This document shows, in pieces, positions 176 to 9,661 of a DNA stretch of 64,000 bases. Below the pieces are notes generated by a model. That model searched no databases. It was not told where the DNA came from and saw only the letters and a list, made by a program, of their open reading frames with translations. Numbering within the stretch: the stretch's first letter is position 1; each line of letters starts with the position of its first letter. The position numbers and the translations under genes are program-made. Source of the stretch: Tropicimonas sp. IMCC34043 (GTDB lineage: Bacteria; Pseudomonadota; Alphaproteobacteria; Rhodobacterales; Rhodobacteraceae); the NCBI RefSeq assembly GCF_003390845.1, contig NZ_QMEK01000001.1:1364001-1428000 (forward strand). The letters are read 5' to 3'.

Positions 176-1198
176 TCAATGCCGCCGCGACCGGCTCAGC
201 AGAATTGGCACCAGAATCACGAGGATCACGATCCGGGCAAAGTGGTGCGTCGCGACGTATGCCGGATCGTAGCCGAGCGCGAGGCCGATGGCCGCCATCG
301 CCTCGACCCCTCCCGGCGCATAGGCGATCCAGACCTGCCCCAATGGCAACCCGGTCAGGAACGCCGTCAGGCAGGCAAAGGCAATCGACATCGCAAGGGT
401 CGTGCCAATCAGCACAGCCCCAGCGCGCCCCATGGCCAGCAGCTGCCGCCCCGAGATCGACGTCAGCCGCGTGCCAAGCACGGTTCCGGTGACCACGAAG
501 CTTGCAAAGATGGCCCAGCTCGGCGCGGGGCCATTGGCCAGTCCGGCAACGTGGGCGCTGGCGCTGAGGATCATGCCGATCAGCAGCGACGCGGCCGGGA
601 TTCTCCACCGCGCCGCGGGGATGCTAAGGCCGAGCGTCAGCAGCAGAATCACGGTCAGCGCGAGAGGTTCCATCGCCGCCGAACGGACAAGCCCGACCGA
701 CGGTGCGTCCATTACCGTCGCCAGCGGCGGCACGACGGCCACAAGCACCAGAAGGCGAATGACCTGAAGGATGGTAATGGCCGTGACATCGCCGTGACCG
801 TCAAGCGCAATGGCGATGGCGTTCGACATGGTGCCGGGCGCGCTGGCCAGCAGCGCGGTTTCGGCATCCAGACCGAACCAGTTGCGAAGGATCGCCGCCC
901 CCGCCAGCAAGGTCGTCAGCAGCGACACCGCCAGCAGCAGCAGACTGATGGACCAGGAGCCGAGTTGGCTCAGCGCATCGGCCTGAACGCCGGCGCCGAG
1001 CGAGATGCCGATCATGCCAAAGGCCACGTCGCGCAGCCGACCCGGAACCGCCATGGCAAGACCCGCGGTTGCAGCAATGGCGACCGCGATGCTCGACCCG
1101 ATCAGCGCGGCGGCCGGCAGACCCAGCAGGGTGGCGCAGACGGCGCCGGCCAGACCGATGGCACCGGCCAGAATGCCTTTGCGAACAGCGTCGTTCAT
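176..1198 (-). CDS. AbrB family membrane protein (putative transporter)
   Basis: A 340-residue, very hydrophobic protein with about ten membrane segments in two similar halves. Each half carries a glycine-rich segment (GMIGISLGAGVQ in the first, SFVVTGTVLGTRL in the second) and a polar loop: ASAPGTMSNAIAIA in the first and AYAPGGVEAMAAIG in the second. These paired APG loops are the hallmark of the AbrB duplication family, inner-membrane proteins once called ammonia monooxygenase-like whose substrates are mostly unknown. The ATG at 1198 starts directly before the first membrane helix, with only a weak purine stretch upstream. It is separated from the tct genes by 220 bp. A paralogue lies at 37138-38226. 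Confidence 0.85.
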   Translation of the reverse strand: MNDAVRKGILAGAIGLAGAVCATLLGLPAAALIGSSIAVAIAATAGLAMAVPGRLRDVAFGMIGISLGAGVQADALSQLGSWSISLLLLAVSLLTTLLAGAAILRNWFGLDAETALLASAPGTMSNAIAIALDGHGDVTAITILQVIRLLVLVAVVPPLATVMDAPSVGLVRSAAMEPLALTVILLLTLGLSIPAARWRIPAASLLIGMILSASAHVAGLANGPAPSWAIFASFVVTGTVLGTRLTSISGRQLLAMGRAGAVLIGTTLAMSIAFACLTAFLTGLPLGQVWIAYAPGGVEAMAAIGLALGYDPAYVATHHFARIVILVILVPILLSRSRRH

Positions 1199-1418: not shown

Positions 1419-2930
1419 TCAATCGTCGCTGTCGGGCAGCGTCCGCGCGCGTCGGCCGAGCCAGATCGGCAGCACGACGACGACCAGCGCGAGACCGTAG
1501 AGCATGACGCTTTTCCAGTTCTCGATCAGGATGCCCCAGTCGCCGCCCGAGATCGACAGCGCCCGGCGCAGGTTGTCTTCGAACAACCCGCCCAGAACGA
1601 AACCGAGGATCACCGGGGCGAGCGAGAAGTCGAGCTTGCGCAGGAACCAGCCAAAGATGCCGAGCCATGTGATCATGAACAGATCGAACGGGTTGCCGAC
1701 GATGGAATAGATGCCGACGAAGGCCAGGATCGCGATCAGCGGCGTCAGGTAGTGCTGCGGAATGGTCAGCATCCGCGCGAACAGACCGACGAGCGGCAGG
1801 TTGATGATGAGAAGCGCGATATTGCCGACGTACATCGAGGCGATAAGGCCCCACGCAATCTCGGGCCGCTGCGCGAACATCAGCGGACCGGGCTGAATGT
1901 TGAACATCAACAGCGCCCCAAGCAGGATCGCTGTCGTTCCCGATCCCGGGATCCCCAGTGTCAGCATCGGCACCATGGCACCGCCGGCCGAGGCATTGTT
2001 GGCAGCCTCGGGCGCCGCAAGTCCGCGGATGTCGCCGGTGCCAAAATTCTTGCCGCCTTCGCCGGCGATCCGCTTTTCGGTGCCATAGGCGACAGCGGAC
2101 GCCACCGACGCCCCGGTGCCCGGCAGCACGCCGATGAAAAAGCCGATCAGCGAGCAGCGCAGGATCGTCCACTTGGTCGCCATCAGGTCGGACCAGCGCA
2201 CGAAGCTGTTGTCGACCGGAAGCGTCTTGAGCCGGCCCGTCACCTGCTGTTCGACCAGATGCAGCAGTTCCGCCATGCCAAAGAGGCCGACGACCACGAT
2301 CAGGAAATCGATGCCGGCGAGGATATCGGGGATCCCGAAGGTAAATCGGGCGACACCCGTATTGCTGTCGATGCCGACGGTCGCCAGCATCAGGCCGATC
2401 AGGGCGCCGAGCAGCGTCTTGACCGTGCTCTTGCCGACCAGCGAGGCCAGCGAGGCAAAGGCGAAGACCATCAGCGCCACATAGTTCGCCGGCGAGAAGG
2501 TGACCGCGAATTTCGCCAGCAGCGGGCCGAACAAGGTCATCAGGATGACCGCGATGGTGCCGCCGACGAAACTGGCGACAGCGGACAGGGACAGGGCCCG
2601 CCCCGCCTCGCCCTTCAGCGCCATCGGGTGACCGTCGAGCGTTGTCATCACGGCACCGGAATCGCCTGGGACGTTCAGCAGGATCGACGAGATCCGCCCG
2701 CCGTATTCCGCGCCATAATAGATCCCGGCCAGCAGGATCAGCGCGCTTTCGGGCGGAAAGCCAAGGCCATAGGCAATGGGCAGCAGGATCGCGACGCCGT
2801 TGATCGGCCCAAGGCCGGGCAGCGCCCCGATCAGGGTGCCGGCAAAACAGCCCAGCAGCACCAGCATCAGGTTGAACGGCATCAGCGCGACGCCAAAGCC
2901 TGTCGTCAGGCCGGAAAGGACCTCTCCCAT
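1419..2930 (-). CDS. tctA: Tripartite tricarboxylate transporter, large permease TctA
   Basis: The 503-residue large membrane subunit of a TTT-family, cation-driven secondary transporter, which takes a carboxylate from the periplasmic protein TctC into the cell. About 11-12 membrane segments are visible. Family signatures include [20 protein letters not shown] near residue 38, the [19 protein letters not shown] region near residue 75, and the repeat-like [20 protein letters not shown] and [16 protein letters not shown] in the second half. The length matches the family. The ATG overlaps the tctB stop by one base (TGATG), indicating translational coupling. Substrate cannot be read from the sequence; TTT systems carry citrate, tricarballylate, aromatic acids and others. 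Confidence 0.95.
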
Positions 2931-3403
2931 CAGGTTGCTCCTTCGCCGGATGTCGGACGTTGGGTGAAGACCTCGATCAGGTCCCCGCTGGGCAGGTTCA
3001 GATCCAGCAGGCTCACGCAAAGCAGATAGCCGAAGACCCCGGCGCAGACGCCAAAAATGGCCGACCGCCTCCAGGTGGCCCCCAGCATCCGCGCCACAAT
3101 CAGACCGAACAGAATGGTCGAAACGATGAACCCCAGCGGCTCGTATAGCTCGGCATAGGCGACCAGCAGCACGATCATCGCCGCAAGGCGGAACCATGTC
3201 TGACGTGCGACGCCGATGCTGTCGGTGTCAGGCTTCCACAGGATGACCAGGATGCACAGTGTGGCCACGACAGACAGGATCCGCGGCCAGCTTTCCGGCC
3301 CGAGGGGGTCGTATTGAAACGGGGCCTTGATGATGGTGAACGCAATGAAACCATAGATCAGCGTCACGATCAGAAGGACCCCGGCGAAAATCCGGTCGGC
3401 CAT
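2930..3403 (-). CDS. tctB: Tripartite tricarboxylate transporter, small permease TctB
   Basis: The small membrane subunit of the TTT carrier, 157 residues, with four predicted membrane helices: MADRIFAGVLLIVTLIYGFIA at the N-terminus, then SWPRILSVVATLCILVILW, LAAMIVLLVAYAELYEPLGFIVSTILF and IFGVCAGVFGYLLCVSLL. The PLGFxxST motif in the third segment is characteristic of TctB. I chose the ATG at 3403 because AAAGG lies seven bases upstream; an in-frame GTG two codons earlier (3409) is possible. The gene lies between tctC and tctA and couples to tctA through a one-base overlap. Confidence 0.93.
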   Translation of the reverse strand: MADRIFAGVLLIVTLIYGFIAFTIIKAPFQYDPLGPESWPRILSVVATLCILVILWKPDTDSIGVARQTWFRLAAMIVLLVAYAELYEPLGFIVSTILFGLIVARMLGATWRRSAIFGVCAGVFGYLLCVSLLDLNLPSGDLIEVFTQRPTSGEGAT

Positions 3404-3474
3404 GGGCACACCTTTGGAAAATGGGGGCAGAAATCGGCCCGGCGGACGGTGTCGCCGGGCCTTCGGTCACGACA

Positions 3475-4446
3475 TTACTGGATCAGGCCCGCTTCGGACG
3501 CGATCGTCCGCAGGGCGTCCATGCGTGTCTTGATGGAGGCCTGAAGCTCCTCCCCCGCAAGGTTCAGCGGCAGCAGACCCTTGTCGTTCTGGATCTTGGC
3601 CCATTCCTCGGTGCCATAGGCGGTTTTGAAGGCGTCGACCCAGGAGTTGTAATCCGCGTCAGACACGTCCTTGCCCATGTAGAACCCGCGCAGGATCGTC
3701 CATTCGACGTCGAAGCCCTGTTCCTTTGCGGTGGGAATATCGGCGAACGGCACATCCAGACGCTCGGGGGCCAAAACCGCGAGAACGCGCATGGTGCCTG
3801 CTTCCAGATGCGGAACCATTTCGCCGACGTCGCCCATGTAGACGGCAATCGAACCGCCCAGCAGGCCGGCAATCGCATCGCCACCGCCGTCGAACGCGAC
3901 GTATCGCATGGCCATCGGCGATGCACCGGTCTCGCGGATCAGCAATGCCGCCTTCATCCAGTCCTGCGACCCGACCGAGCCGCCGGCGCCGATCACCGTT
4001 CCGGCAGGGTCCGCACCAAGATCGGCCATAAGCTGGTCGAGCGAGGTGTATTTGCTGTCGTCCCGCACCACGACGGCGCCAAAGTCCGCACCGGCAGTGG
4101 CGACGAACCGCACGTCATCCTCGGTGAAGGCGCCATATTTGCCGGTGGCGATGTTCAGAAGCGATCCGGTCGAAAACGCCACGATGGCGTTCGGATCGTC
4201 CCTGCGGGTCGTGTTGAAGAGGTTGTAGGCCACAGCGCCGATGCCGCCGGGCATGAACGTGACCTGCATCGGTCCCCCGAAATGGTCGGCCAGACCGGCC
4301 TGGGCGACACGGCAGGTGACGTCAAAACCGCCACCGGGCTTTGCCGGCGCGATGCATTCGGGTTTGGTGACGTCGGCAAATACGACGGTGGGCAGGGTCA
4401 GGCTGGCGGCTACCAGCAGGCCGCCGCAGAAGCGGATCATCGTCAT
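3475..4446 (-). CDS. tctC: Tripartite tricarboxylate transporter, periplasmic binding protein TctC
   Basis: A 323-residue periplasmic receptor that binds the carboxylate and delivers it to TctA-TctB. It has a signal peptide (about residues 1-21, MTMIRFCGGLLVAASLTLPT, cleaved near VFA-DVT) and a mature N-terminus with KPGGGFDVTCR, the PGGGxD carboxylate-binding loop of the TctC/Bug family. The GAGGSVGSQDW region near residue 142 fits the second ligand loop. The ATG at 4446 is supported by GGAGG seven bases upstream. It is first in the tctCBA operon and divergent from the two-component genes, so uptake is probably regulated by them. Confidence 0.93.
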   Translation of the reverse strand: MTMIRFCGGLLVAASLTLPTVVFADVTKPECIAPAKPGGGFDVTCRVAQAGLADHFGGPMQVTFMPGGIGAVAYNLFNTTRRDDPNAIVAFSTGSLLNIATGKYGAFTEDDVRFVATAGADFGAVVVRDDSKYTSLDQLMADLGADPAGTVIGAGGSVGSQDWMKAALLIRETGASPMAMRYVAFDGGGDAIAGLLGGSIAVYMGDVGEMVPHLEAGTMRVLAVLAPERLDVPFADIPTAKEQGFDVEWTILRGFYMGKDVSDADYNSWVDAFKTAYGTEEWAKIQNDKGLLPLNLAGEELQASIKTRMDALRTIASEAGLIQ

Positions 4447-4637: not shown

Positions 4638-5309
4638 ATGCGCATGCTTCTGGTGGAAGATAACGACGACCTGGCCGAGACGATCATCGATCGCCTTCGG
4701 TCCGAAGGTCATTCCATCGACCGCGAATCCGATGGCGACGAGGCGAACGCGCTGCTGCGCCACGCGCGGTTCGACATCATCCTGCTCGATGTGAACCTGC
4801 CGGGCCGCAGTGGCTATGAGACGTTGCGGTCGATGCGCGCGCGCGGCGACCAGACCCCGGTGCTGATCCTGACCGCGCGCAGCCAGATCGACGACCGGGT
4901 GATCGGGCTGGATGCAGGCGCCGATGACTACATGGTCAAGCCGGTCGATTTTCGCGAATTGTCGGCGCGCTGCCGCGTGCTGGCACGGCGGCGGGCGGGC
5001 AACGCCAGCAACGTGTTTTCCGCCGGCGATCTGACATTCGACCGGGCGGCCAAGCGGGCAACGGTGCGCGGACAGGATGCCGAACTGCGCGCCCGCGAGA
5101 TCCAGTTGCTGGAAATCCTGATCGACAACCTCGGCCGGATGCTGACCAAGGAAGAGGTCGCCGACAAGCTCTACAGCTTCGACGAGGCCCCCAGCCTGAA
5201 TGCCGTGGAACAGCTGGTCGCACGCCTGCGCAAGAAGCTCGATGGCACGCCGCTGGTCGTCAAGACCGCCCGAGGATTGGGGTACATGGCCTATGTGGCC
5301 GAGGATTGA
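4638..5309 (+). CDS. tctD: OmpR-family response regulator of the tricarboxylate uptake locus (TctD-like)
   Basis: A 223-residue response regulator. Residues 1-115 form the receiver: acidic pocket ED at 7-8, phospho-acceptor Asp51 in ILLDVNLPG, Thr79 and Lys101 in MVKPVDF. Residues 125-220 form a winged-helix DNA-binding domain (FDRAAKRATV, LRAREIQLLEIL, VEQLVARLRKKL, VVKTARGLGYM). It should bind tandem repeats upstream of tctC after phosphorylation by the adjoining kinase. The start is the first ATG (two ATGs lie close, codons 1 and 3). The 3' end overlaps the kinase start by 17 bp. Confidence 0.9.
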   Translation: MRMLLVEDNDDLAETIIDRLRSEGHSIDRESDGDEANALLRHARFDIILLDVNLPGRSGYETLRSMRARGDQTPVLILTARSQIDDRVIGLDAGADDYMVKPVDFRELSARCRVLARRRAGNASNVFSAGDLTFDRAAKRATVRGQDAELRAREIQLLEILIDNLGRMLTKEEVADKLYSFDEAPSLNAVEQLVARLRKKLDGTPLVVKTARGLGYMAYVAED

Positions 5310-7731
5310 TCGCACCTTTTCACTGCAGAGACGTCTGCTGACGATGATGGCGCTGGGGTTCCTCGGCCTGCTGCTGATCATCTCGGCCCTGCTCTGGCGG
5401 TATTCGCGCGCAGCCTCGAACCACACCTACGACCTGCTTCTGGCAGGTGCGGCGCTGTCGGTACTGGAACGCGTGTCCTCCGGACCGAGCGGCATCACCG
5501 TCGATCTGCCCACATCCGCGATGGATATTCTGGCGCTCGCCCCCGATGATCGGGTCGTCTATCGCGTCTATTCCATGACCGGAGGCGAGATCACCGGAAC
5601 ACCGGCGTTGCCCGGACCGCGCGACGACAGCCCAAGTTCGCAGCCGGCGTTCTATGACGCGGAGTTTGGCGCGCCGTTCCGATTTGTGCAGCAGGGACGA
5701 CAACTGATCACGCCCGGCGGTCAGGAATGGGTGGTCGTCCAGATCGGCCAGACGCGGGCGGCCAGAACGGCGCAGCAATGGTCGCTGTTCCTGAACAGCA
5801 TGGCGGGGCTGGCGGCGGTTTCGCTGATCGGCCTCGGGTTTGTCTGGCTCGCGATCCGCACAGCGCTTGCCCCGCTGCGCGAGCTTGCCATGGACCTGCG
5901 CCGGCGCGATCCCGACGACCTGTCCCAGATCGAAGGCGACCCGCCGCGCGAGATCCGCAGCCTCTTTGATGCAATCAACGGCTTCATCGCGCGCCTGCAC
6001 AGCAACCGAAGACTGACCGAAACCTTCATCGCCGACGTCGCCCACCAGACCCGCACGTCGCTGTCGGCGTTGCAGGGACAACTGGGGCTGGCAGCGGATG
6101 CGACGAGCTTCGAGCAGATGAAACGACGTGTCATCAAGGCAGAAAGCCACGGCAAACGCACGGTGCGCCTGACCAACCAGTTGCTTGCCCATGCGATGGT
6201 CATCCACCGCTCGGAAACCGGCACCCTTCGGCCCGTCGCGTTGAAACCGCTGGTGACCGAGCTTCTGACCGACATGCATCGCGACCTCGACATGCGCGGC
6301 GTGACCGTGACGCTCGACGCAGATGCGCTGGCCCCGGGCGAGGATCTGGTGCGCGGCGACGCGGTGTCGATCCGCGAGGCATTGTCGAACCTGCTGGAAA
6401 ACGCCCGCCGCCACGGTCCGCCCGACAATACCATCGACATCATGCTGGAATCCTGCGGCCCCGACTGTCTGTCGCTGATTGTCGAGGACGCAGGGCCCGG
6501 CATCGCCCCCGCCGACCGCGGGCGCGCGACCGAACGGTTCACCTCGATTGCGCGCGACACCGCCGGATCGGGACTTGGGCTTTCCATCGTGCGCGCGGTC
6601 GCGGACAGCCACGATGCCCATCTGCTGCTCGGAACCTCCCGGCACGGCGGGCTGAGAGCGGAGATCAGGTTCCGCCGTCTCCTGACCGTGCAGACAGGAA
6701 GGGCCGTCCTTGCGGCAACCGCGACCTGCCTTGCGCTGTTGCTCTGCGCCCCCCCGGCACAGGCCGAGGCTCAGACGGTGCTCACGATTGCCAGCTCCAC
6801 CGACGCCCCGACCATGGTCCCGCTGATTGCGGGCTTCGAGGCGCTGCATCCGGGCGTCGAGGTTGCCTACCTCGAATACCAGACCGTCGATCTGTATCAG
6901 GACATTCTGAACGCCGCCCCGGACGACATGCCTGATCTGGTCATCAGCTCCGCGATGGACCTTCAGGTCGATCTGGTGAACCGCGGCCTCGCGCGCCGAC
7001 TTGCCATCCCCGAGGCGTTCAACCCGCCCGAATGGGCGGTCTGGCGGTCGGAGCTGTTCGGGTTCACGTTCGAGCCCGCGGCCATCATCTATAACCTCGA
7101 GGCGATCGAGGCCGGATCGCTGCCGCAGGAACACCGCGAACTGGCAAATTTCATCCGCGACAACGAGGATAGCCTTCAGGGCAAGATCGGCACCTACGAT
7201 CTGCGCCGGTCCGGCATCGGCTATCTCTATGCAACACAGGACGTTGTGCAGGGTCTTCAGGCGCAGCGCATGACCGAGGTGATGGGCCGCGCCCATGTCA
7301 GGACCTATTGTTGCACGTCCGAGATGATCGAGGCGACCGCGCGCGGCGATCTCGCCATCGCGATCAATACCATCGGATCCTATGCGCTCGGCGCCGCCGC
7401 GTCGGATCCCCGTATCGGCGTTCACTTCATGAGCGACTACAATCTTGTCATGGCGCGCACGGTGTTTGTCCCGCAGTCCAGCCAGCACCCTGACCTGGCC
7501 CAGCAGTTCGTCGCGTTCATGTTGTCGGACGGGCAGAAGATCATGGCGGACCAATCCGATCTGATCCCGATTCAGCCATTCGTGGCGCGTGACAACGTGG
7601 CGCCGTCGGGCCTTGCCGACCTTCCCGGCAGCTTCCTGCCGATCCGCCTTGGCCCCGGCCTGCTGACCTATCTCGACGCCCGCAAGAAGGCAGAATTCCT
7701 GTCGAACTGGGATGCCGCCGTCGAGGAATGA
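5293..7731 (+). CDS. Sensor histidine kinase fused to a periplasmic binding protein domain
   Basis: One uninterrupted 812-codon frame with two parts. Residues 1-465 resemble TctE: membrane helix about 16-37, periplasmic sensor, second helix about 165-190, H-box with His251 in FIADVAHQTRTSL, N-box with Asn370 in LSNLLENARRHG, then VEDAGPGIAP and GSGLGLSIVRAV. From codon 466 (a GTG at 6688) a hydrophobic stretch VLAATATCLALLLCAPPAQA, shaped like a signal peptide, leads into about 325 residues resembling an iron-type ABC binding protein (TIASSTDAPTMVPLIAGFEA to WDAAVEE). The topology is consistent: the kinase is cytoplasmic and the third helix puts the binding domain in the periplasm. No stop or strong ribosome site separates the parts. 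Alternatives are internal initiation at 6688 or cleavage after AQA. The ATG at 5293 is chosen for position, with no clear ribosome site. Confidence 0.8.
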   Translation: MWPRIDRTFSLQRRLLTMMALGFLGLLLIISALLWRYSRAASNHTYDLLLAGAALSVLERVSSGPSGITVDLPTSAMDILALAPDDRVVYRVYSMTGGEITGTPALPGPRDDSPSSQPAFYDAEFGAPFRFVQQGRQLITPGGQEWVVVQIGQTRAARTAQQWSLFLNSMAGLAAVSLIGLGFVWLAIRTALAPLRELAMDLRRRDPDDLSQIEGDPPREIRSLFDAINGFIARLHSNRRLTETFIADVAHQTRTSLSALQGQLGLAADATSFEQMKRRVIKAESHGKRTVRLTNQLLAHAMVIHRSETGTLRPVALKPLVTELLTDMHRDLDMRGVTVTLDADALAPGEDLVRGDAVSIREALSNLLENARRHGPPDNTIDIMLESCGPDCLSLIVEDAGPGIAPADRGRATERFTSIARDTAGSGLGLSIVRAVADSHDAHLLLGTSRHGGLRAEIRFRRLLTVQTGRAVLAATATCLALLLCAPPAQAEAQTVLTIASSTDAPTMVPLIAGFEALHPGVEVAYLEYQTVDLYQDILNAAPDDMPDLVISSAMDLQVDLVNRGLARRLAIPEAFNPPEWAVWRSELFGFTFEPAAIIYNLEAIEAGSLPQEHRELANFIRDNEDSLQGKIGTYDLRRSGIGYLYATQDVVQGLQAQRMTEVMGRAHVRTYCCTSEMIEATARGDLAIAINTIGSYALGAAASDPRIGVHFMSDYNLVMARTVFVPQSSQHPDLAQQFVAFMLSDGQKIMADQSDLIPIQPFVARDNVAPSGLADLPGSFLPIRLGPGLLTYLDARKKAEFLSNWDAAVEE

Positions 7732-7886: not shown

Positions 7887-8402
7887 TCACATCGGGCTCG
7901 GCAGGTTCTGCAGCATGCCCCAGAACGCAGTGGCGAAGATCGCCGTCATGCCGATCACCTGATTGAGCAACCGCTGCCATGCCAGCATTTCATGCATCCC
8001 CTGCCCGTCGGCTGCCCGGATCCGCCGCGCCGTGCGCACCGACAACGCGAAGACGCAGCAAATCGGCAGCGCCAGCAGAAACACCGCCTGGGCCAGTTCG
8101 ATCCCATAGAGGAACCCGAGCAGCGCCAGCGTTGTCAGTGCAAAGCAGGCAAGCCCCAGTATCCAGGCCCCGCCGCTGTCGGCTGCCCGCAACAGCCGGA
8201 TCACCTGCACCCGCACCATGTCGACAAGCTCCGCCTCGGCCTCGGCGCCATCGCGACGGGCGCGCAGGATCATGCCGTAAGGCACACCGAGAACGTAATG
8301 GATGGCCAGCGACCAGGTTGCGACGACGACGATCCAGTACCAAAGGTTCGAGAACGACCGGGTGTCGATCATGTCGAAAGTCGTGTGGTACCAGTCCTGC
8401 AC
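7887..8402 (-). CDS. Conserved rhodobacterial membrane protein (annotated elsewhere as SufBCD component)
   Basis: A 171-residue protein with four membrane helices: NLWYWIVVVATWSLAIHYVLG, GGAWILGLACFALTTLALLG, IELAQAVFLLALPICCVFAL and a C-terminal helix ending FWGMLQNL. The start, with SFSNLWYWIVV and VLGVPYGMILRARR, matches a family found in Rhodobacterales and often labelled 'component of SufBCD complex'. I know of no biochemical support for that label, and no suf genes lie in the window. The start codon follows a divergent intergenic region shared with hemB. Function unknown. Confidence 0.75.
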   Translation of the reverse strand: MQDWYHTTFDMIDTRSFSNLWYWIVVVATWSLAIHYVLGVPYGMILRARRDGAEAEAELVDMVRVQVIRLLRAADSGGAWILGLACFALTTLALLGFLYGIELAQAVFLLALPICCVFALSVRTARRIRAADGQGMHEMLAWQRLLNQVIGMTAIFATAFWGMLQNLPSPM

Positions 8403-8659: not shown

Positions 8660-9661
8660 ATGCATCCGATCCTCCCCGCCTTTCCCGCGAACCGCCCCCG
8701 GCGGCTGCGCCGCACCGAGCAGCTACGCGCGCTGGCGCGCGAGACATTGCTTGCCCCCGGCGATCTGATCTGGCCGATCTTCGTGCGCGACGGACAGGGC
8801 GTGGCCGAAGAGATCGCATCGATGCCCGGTGTGTTCCGCCGTTCGGTCGACCGGATTGTCGAGGCGGCGGCCGAGGCGGCCGAGCTGGGCGTCTCGGCGG
8901 TCTGTCTGTTTCCTTATACCGACCCGTCGCTGAAGACCGAGGATTGCGCCGAGGCGTGGAACCCCGACAACCTGTGCAACCGGGCCATCCGGGCGATCAA
9001 GGCCGAGGTGCCCGACATCGCCGTCATGACCGACATCGCGCTCGATCCCTACAACAGCAACGGCCACGACGGCCTTGTCGTCGACGGGATCATCATCAAT
9101 GACGAGACGGTCGAGGCGCTGGTGAAGATGGCGCTGGCACAGGCCGAGGCCGGGGCCGATATCCTCGGGCCGTCCGACATGATGGACGGACGTATCGGGG
9201 CGATGCGCACGGCGCTCGAGGCGGCGGGCTATCGCGATGTCGCGATCATGTCCTATTCGGCAAAATACGCCAGCGCCTTCTATGGTCCGTTCCGCGATGC
9301 GGTCGGCGCCTCGGGGGCACTGAAGGGCGACAAGAAGACCTATCAGATGGATCCCGCCAACAGCGACGAGGCGATGCGGCTGATCGCGCGCGACCTGGCG
9401 GAAGGGGCCGACATGGTCATGGTCAAGCCCGGCCTGCCCTATCTCGACATCTGCAGGCGCGCCAAGGACATGTTCGGCGCCCCGGTCTTTGCCTATCAGG
9501 TGTCGGGCGAATATGCGATGATCGAGGCCGCGGCCGCGAATGGCTGGATCGACGGCGAGAAGGTGATGATCGAAAGCCTGCAGGCGTTCAAGCGCGCCGG
9601 CTGCGACGGCATCCTGACCTATTACGCCCCGCGGGTTGCCCGGCGTCTGCGCGCCGGATAG
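8660..9661 (+). CDS. hemB: Delta-aminolevulinic acid dehydratase (porphobilinogen synthase)
   Basis: This cytoplasmic tetrapyrrole enzyme condenses two 5-aminolevulinate molecules into porphobilinogen, feeding heme, cobalamin and, where present, bacteriochlorophyll. The 333-residue length is normal. The two active-site lysines are visible: Lys202 in MSYSAKYASAFYGPFRDA and Lys256 (Schiff base) in MVMVKPGLPYLD. The metal-site segment reads TDIALDPYNSNGHDG, so the cysteine triplet of zinc-dependent enzymes is absent, as in other alphaproteobacterial enzymes. AAGGAG precedes the ATG by ten bases. The gene is divergent from the membrane protein gene at 7887-8402. Confidence 0.97.
   Translation: MHPILPAFPANRPRRLRRTEQLRALARETLLAPGDLIWPIFVRDGQGVAEEIASMPGVFRRSVDRIVEAAAEAAELGVSAVCLFPYTDPSLKTEDCAEAWNPDNLCNRAIRAIKAEVPDIAVMTDIALDPYNSNGHDGLVVDGIIINDETVEALVKMALAQAEAGADILGPSDMMDGRIGAMRTALEAAGYRDVAIMSYSAKYASAFYGPFRDAVGASGALKGDKKTYQMDPANSDEAMRLIARDLAEGADMVMVKPGLPYLDICRRAKDMFGAPVFAYQVSGEYAMIEAAAANGWIDGEKVMIESLQAFKRAGCDGILTYYAPRVARRLRAG

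Follow-up and report, generated by a model that had tools for sequence, protein, structure and literature searches.

A TctE-type histidine kinase joined in frame to a periplasmic solute-binding protein in Tropicimonas and its relatives, with a probable internal signal peptide at the junction

The window, a 64,000-nucleotide stretch of the Tropicimonas sp. IMCC34043 genome, contains a single open frame that runs from an ATG at 5293 to a stop codon at 7729 to 7731, with 812 codons ahead of the stop. Its product is a TctE-type histidine kinase joined in frame to a periplasmic solute-binding protein (SBP). The reading that we favor, with good though far from complete confidence, is that this product is a precursor, which signal peptidase I would split into a freed SBP of the citrate type and a kinase that would induce the divergent tctCBA operon. 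The features of the locus are as follows.

176..1198, minus strand: AbrB-family membrane protein (Pfam PF05145), which often adjoins tctA in relatives
1419..2924, minus strand: tctA, start approximate (Pfam PF01970, E 9.9e-156)
2930..3409, minus strand: tctB (Pfam PF07331)
3475..4446, minus strand: tctC, the SBP of the tripartite tricarboxylate transporter, start approximate (Pfam PF03401; conserved divergent neighbor)
4638..5309, plus strand: TctD-like OmpR-family response regulator, with a 17-base overlap with the kinase start
5293..7731, plus strand: the fused frame, 812 aa, histidine kinase (residues 1-465) plus SBP (466-812) (ORF, Pfam, full-length fused homologues)
5335..5397, plus strand: kinase transmembrane helix 1, about residues 15-35 (hydrophobicity; AlphaFold helix 11-58)
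5365..5781, plus strand: 2CSK_N sensor region, a periplasmic domain with flanking helix (Pfam PF08521, E 1.6e-26)
6022..6189, plus strand: HisKA dimerization and phospho-acceptor domain, with His251 in AHQTRT (Pfam PF00512)
6355..6675, plus strand: HATPase_c catalytic domain with intact N and G boxes (Pfam PF02518, E 5e-19)
6688..6690, plus strand: GTG codon (Val466), a candidate internal start that lacks a Shine-Dalgarno-like sequence and is not conserved in position
6703..6750, plus strand: hydrophobic core of the predicted internal signal peptide, residues 471-486 (hydrophobicity; pLDDT <50 over 465-491)
6757..6771, plus strand: signal peptidase I-type site, AQA/E (after residue 491) or the overlapping AEA/Q (after 493) (small-x-Ala in all intact fused homologues)
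6781..7548, plus strand: SBP domain, predicted to be of the citrate-binding MctA/3c9h type (Pfam SBP_bac_11; citrate-site residue matches)

The Pfam scan, in which the frame was opened two codons 5' of the ATG at 5293, returned 2CSK_N, HisKA, HATPase_c and then SBP_bac_11 or SBP_bac_1 in this order, with HAMP below threshold. The kinase domains lie within approximately the first 461 residues, while the SBP match starts at about residue 497. The kinase half thus contains the three domains of a TctE-type kinase together with its conserved histidine and its N and G boxes, and His251 and the boxes are invariant across the fused relatives (20 fused rows). An earlier note, made from the DNA letters alone, had described the in-frame fusion and a topology with the kinase inside and the SBP outside. 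The fusion is borne out by the open frame, the Pfam domains, some 20 further genomes and single coding sequences on finished plasmids, and the implied topology is supported as well; the 2CSK_N/TctE kinase type, the tctCBA neighbor and the citrate-type SBP were not named in that note.

Genomes of the window's family (199), order (393), class (385) and phylum (349) and of a second family (17) were searched, which is also the search for the same junction in relatives that the earlier note had proposed. Kinase/SBP gene pairs are numerous in these genomes, and single-frame fusions, some of them in Rhodobacterales, form a minority; parsing of the loci left 22 fused and 59 split pairs once redundancy was removed. 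The in-frame join is seen in many Alphaproteobacteria, in Loktanella, Maritalea, Salipiger, Sulfitobacter and Palleronia and more distantly in Azospirillum. Within the window's own clade full-length identity is mostly 49-72%, the nearest fused relative being that of Loktanella atrilutea, with 72% identity across the whole protein. In Salipiger profundus, Sulfitobacter sp. THAF37, Palleronia sp. LCG004 and Azospirillum brasilense the fused gene lies on a finished plasmid and is annotated by RefSeq as a single CDS of 799-837 aa under the bare name "extracellular solute-binding protein" (loci L170, L171, L172 and L174), so that the kinase half is missed in kinase counts based on names.

The commoner state is a kinase and an SBP encoded by two adjacent genes, in most cases with an overlap of 4 to 31 bases or with hardly a gap between them, so that a small indel would be enough to join them. 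Both forms occur within one species, as a plasmid of Maritalea myrionectae has a split copy with the genes 4 bases apart (L173:5899-8341), and another strain's assembly has a fused one (L041:4549-6984). A third layout is found at four loci (L080, L085, L089 and L092), where the SBP and kinase genes are oppositely oriented and about one gene length apart. One fused copy, in genome G304 (L139:8789-10594), belongs to a decayed locus, in which the kinase is disrupted and lacks its last part and the signal segment, the regulator and tctA are truncated and tctC was not found; it was excluded from all junction statistics.

In the window, the junction reads RRLLTVQTGR / AVLAATATCLALLLCA / PPAQA / EAQTVLTIASSTD, such that the last strand of the ATPase domain is followed by a basic stretch, a hydrophobic core and then a small-x-Ala motif. 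The uninterrupted hydrophobic length has a median of 15 residues in 21 fusions, compared with 21 for helices 1 and 2 of the same kinases. Thus, of the signal-peptide-like helix that the earlier note placed here, the signal-peptide character stands, whereas the hydrophobic part, at about 15 residues, is shorter than an ordinary transmembrane helix. In the AlphaFold model of the whole protein (mean pLDDT 90), the segment 465-491 falls below 50 and has no confident helix, which is suggestive of a signal peptide rather than a helix but no more than suggestive.

The motif after the core is constant. Alanine occupies position −1 in 21/21 fusions used for the analysis and in the 4/4 checked later, and position −3 is always small or aliphatic. 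In the window clade 13/13 rows have Ala at −1 and 13/13 have A, S or G at −3, whereas entropies elsewhere between −14 and +4 are approximately 2.0 to 2.7 bits. As the junction alignment was anchored on the cleavage site, a shuffle test and the four later loci served as controls. When residues were shuffled, the site appeared in a mean of 3.4 of the 13 rows and in 13/13 rows in none of 20,000 shuffles, a figure that, with related rows, is not a probability for independent events. The four later-found fusions all contain the site, as AEA, AQA, GVA and AQA. In addition, all 21 fusions pass a site test that only 11 of their own 21 first helices pass, with a strong score in 16 versus 4. The short hydrophobic segment, the positive charge before it and the small-x-Ala motif after it are those of a signal peptide, and the junction segment probably works as one, internal to the protein and cut by signal peptidase I.

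The alternative with the best claim, though we consider it unlikely, is an uncut single-chain receptor, in which the third segment would be a transmembrane helix and the tethered SBP would combine capture and signaling in one molecule. The topology fits this arrangement, a 1:1 stoichiometry would suit a dedicated sensor, and the junction segments of the fusions somewhat exceed the signal peptides of the split genes in length and hydrophobicity (hydrophobic length 15 versus 12; a 19-residue KD above 1.6 in 86% of fused segments versus 36% of split signal peptides), which leaves room for a retained anchor. However, the segment is short for a helix, a folded SBP would begin only a few residues past the membrane, and every intact fusion keeps the small-x-Ala site though the linker has strongly diverged. 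The ATPase domain is separated from the hydrophobic segment by 2-14 residues in most members, and in 10/21 fusions the segment begins 2 to 4 residues past the last ATPase strand. Such spacing would keep the ATPase domain at the membrane in the cut and the uncut product alike, an awkward geometry in either case. A more specific form of the uncut receptor, in which the third helix pins the ATPase domain and the C-terminal SBP folds back onto the kinase's own sensor domain, seems to us marginally more doubtful still. The earlier note had left open a one-chain sensor and cleavage at the AxA site; the latter is the better supported by the conserved −1 Ala, the small or aliphatic −3 residue and the signal-peptide length, and one-chain sensing is the less likely of the two.

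Separate production of the SBP from an internal translation start, with the full fusion as a by-product, is improbable. The GTG at 6688 does sit just ahead of the signal segment, and a GTG or ATG is found nearby in some relatives, but no internal start near the junction is conserved among the aligned fused rows, candidate starts near the segment lack a Shine-Dalgarno-like sequence in nearly all rows, and the hydrophobic segment often lies only 2 residues past the last kinase strand. In high-GC DNA a long frame may stay open by chance, against which stands the in-frame recurrence of the join in about 20 further genomes. That two genes were joined by an error of sequencing or assembly, or by decay into a pseudogene, has next to no probability, since, one decayed relative notwithstanding, the join recurs with intact catalytic residues in many independent genomes and on finished plasmids, which excludes the frameshift or missed stop near 6685 that the earlier note had raised; its other concern, that homologues might always be two genes, is answered by the existence of both fused and split forms, and the join is real.

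How often the fusion arose was examined on a tree built from the kinase plus the SBP with the junction omitted, on which the fused rows need at least three fusion or fission changes. They fall into the window clade (13 rows), a second clade (7 rows) and a lone row, G777, and the second clade includes, on a long branch, a paralogue from the window's own genome. Holding all fused rows as one clade was rejected in an AU test on a 39-row set (p-AU 2.7e-55). Repeated fusion is the simplest account, and fusion followed by later splitting may also fit the number of changes.

Among solved structures, the SBP is closest in sequence to 3c9h (E 3e-58), followed by the metal-citrate-binding protein MctA (E 1.6e-31; approximately 27% identity), and a fold search ranks the same two first, with TM scores of 0.84-0.87 by target length. 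An AlphaFold prediction of the SBP alone, made with no alignment, had a mean pLDDT of 36 and was unused. The structure depositors mutated six MctA residues, the entries for four of the mutants (S79, S164, T199 and Y221) being marked as apo. Mapped through the MctA mutant sequences and a printed alignment, S26, D28, S79, S164, T199 and Y221 correspond to Ser502, Asp504, Ser553, Ser640, Thr675 and Tyr697. Among the pairs examined, only the own-genome paralogue lacks the equivalents of D28 and Y221, those of S79 and S164 are nearly always kept, that of T199 is mostly T or S and that of S26 is variable. The SBP thus resembles an MctA-type citrate-binding SBP in sequence, fold and citrate-site residues, and these likenesses, together with the adjoining tctCBA, make citrate or a similar tricarboxylate its likely ligand. 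The own-genome paralogue (G000:C14, L146:8466-10988, minus strand) is a second fused kinase-SBP gene, approximately 28-30% identical, in which the citrate-site residues are lost and which adjoins a phosphonate-type ABC importer instead of tctCBA, suggesting that the module can be retuned.

The order of the locus, with a divergent tctCBA operon and then a response regulator, kinase and SBP, is kept among relatives. In a neighborhood survey based on Tct, AbrB and regulator queries and a few annotated loci, tctCBA adjoins most of the relatives' loci that have enough flank. The response regulator has TctD as its top NCBIfam match, at 179 bits, under the equivalog cut-off of 337, and is TctD-like, not TctD itself. 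A role for the SBP as a component of an ABC transporter was considered and rejected, as the conserved neighbors that these queries and annotated loci bring out are Tct genes; the own-genome paralogue, for its part, does have an ABC importer beside it. On the other side of the SBP gene lie a short frame predicted to encode a membrane protein and lacking a Pfam match (7887-8402, minus strand) and, beyond it, a hemB-like frame (8660-9661) recognized by eye.

In the cleaved-precursor model, translation would yield the TctE-type kinase and its dedicated citrate-type SBP as one chain. The kinase would insert by two membrane helices with its catalytic part in the cytoplasm, after which the hydrophobic segment past the ATPase domain would re-enter the translocon and export the binding domain. 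Signal peptidase I would cut after Ala491 (or Ala493), releasing the SBP into the periplasm at a 1:1 ratio to the kinase, and the cut signal segment would remain, at least initially, as the kinase's third membrane anchor. Ligand-loaded SBP may then dock on the 2CSK_N domain, upon which the kinase would phosphorylate the TctD-like regulator and the tctCBA operon would be induced. What the data show is a recurring fusion with a conserved site, in a conserved locus and with the citrate-pocket residues kept; cleavage, ligand, docking and tctCBA as the target are what we infer. Going by known systems, one would expect the fused SBP to be dedicated to sensing, and TctC to be a different protein that serves transport.

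None of the parts is new in kind, and the three-gene arrangement occurs widely; the fusion is a variant of the TctE-type sensor with an accessory binding protein. No description of a kinase-SBP fusion was found in the literature searched, which covered few subscription papers and is weak evidence on this point. The fbcH cytochrome b/c1 precursor of Bradyrhizobium is an alphaproteobacterial two-protein precursor that is cut at an internal signal peptide, although it belongs to a respiratory complex and is not a signaling protein. MctA (PDB 7f6e, 7f6f) and PDB 3c9h are the nearest solved structures, and MctA shares the citrate-site residues, but both are free SBPs that the PDB descriptions assign to ABC transporters. 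Closest in organization are the split triplets of a TctD-like regulator, TctE-type kinase and SBP in Pseudomonadota, which have a homologous kinase and SBP in the same order beside the same divergent tctCBA. They differ in that separate genes, which usually overlap or almost abut, encode the kinase and the SBP, the latter with a start and a signal peptide of its own.

Only about 10 cases in which a separate binding protein stimulates a sensor kinase have been characterized (PMC9602780). In BctCDE of Bordetella pertussis, as here, the kinase lies beside a tricarboxylate transporter, and the response to citrate needs a binding protein, citrate-loaded BctC being required for BctE to raise bctCBA expression (PMC5812351, PMC9602780). 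There, however, the signaling SBP is the transporter's own TctC-family protein, whereas in the window tctC is a separate gene and the fused protein is a second SBP that matches SBP_bac_11/1 and not TctC. A second SBP dedicated to sensing is also found in the three-component system CuaDSR of Ruminiclostridium cellulolyticum, where CuaD binds the sensor CuaS; in contrast to the window's fusion, that system has separate genes, a cellobiose ligand and a Firmicutes lineage (PMC10384115). Set against these systems, the fusion indicates an SBP dedicated to its kinase and in equal supply. Cleavage would make the product a two-component sensor that is synthesized as a polyprotein, with the kinase's ATPase domain leashed to the membrane by the leftover signal peptide; without cleavage, it would represent a new sensor architecture.
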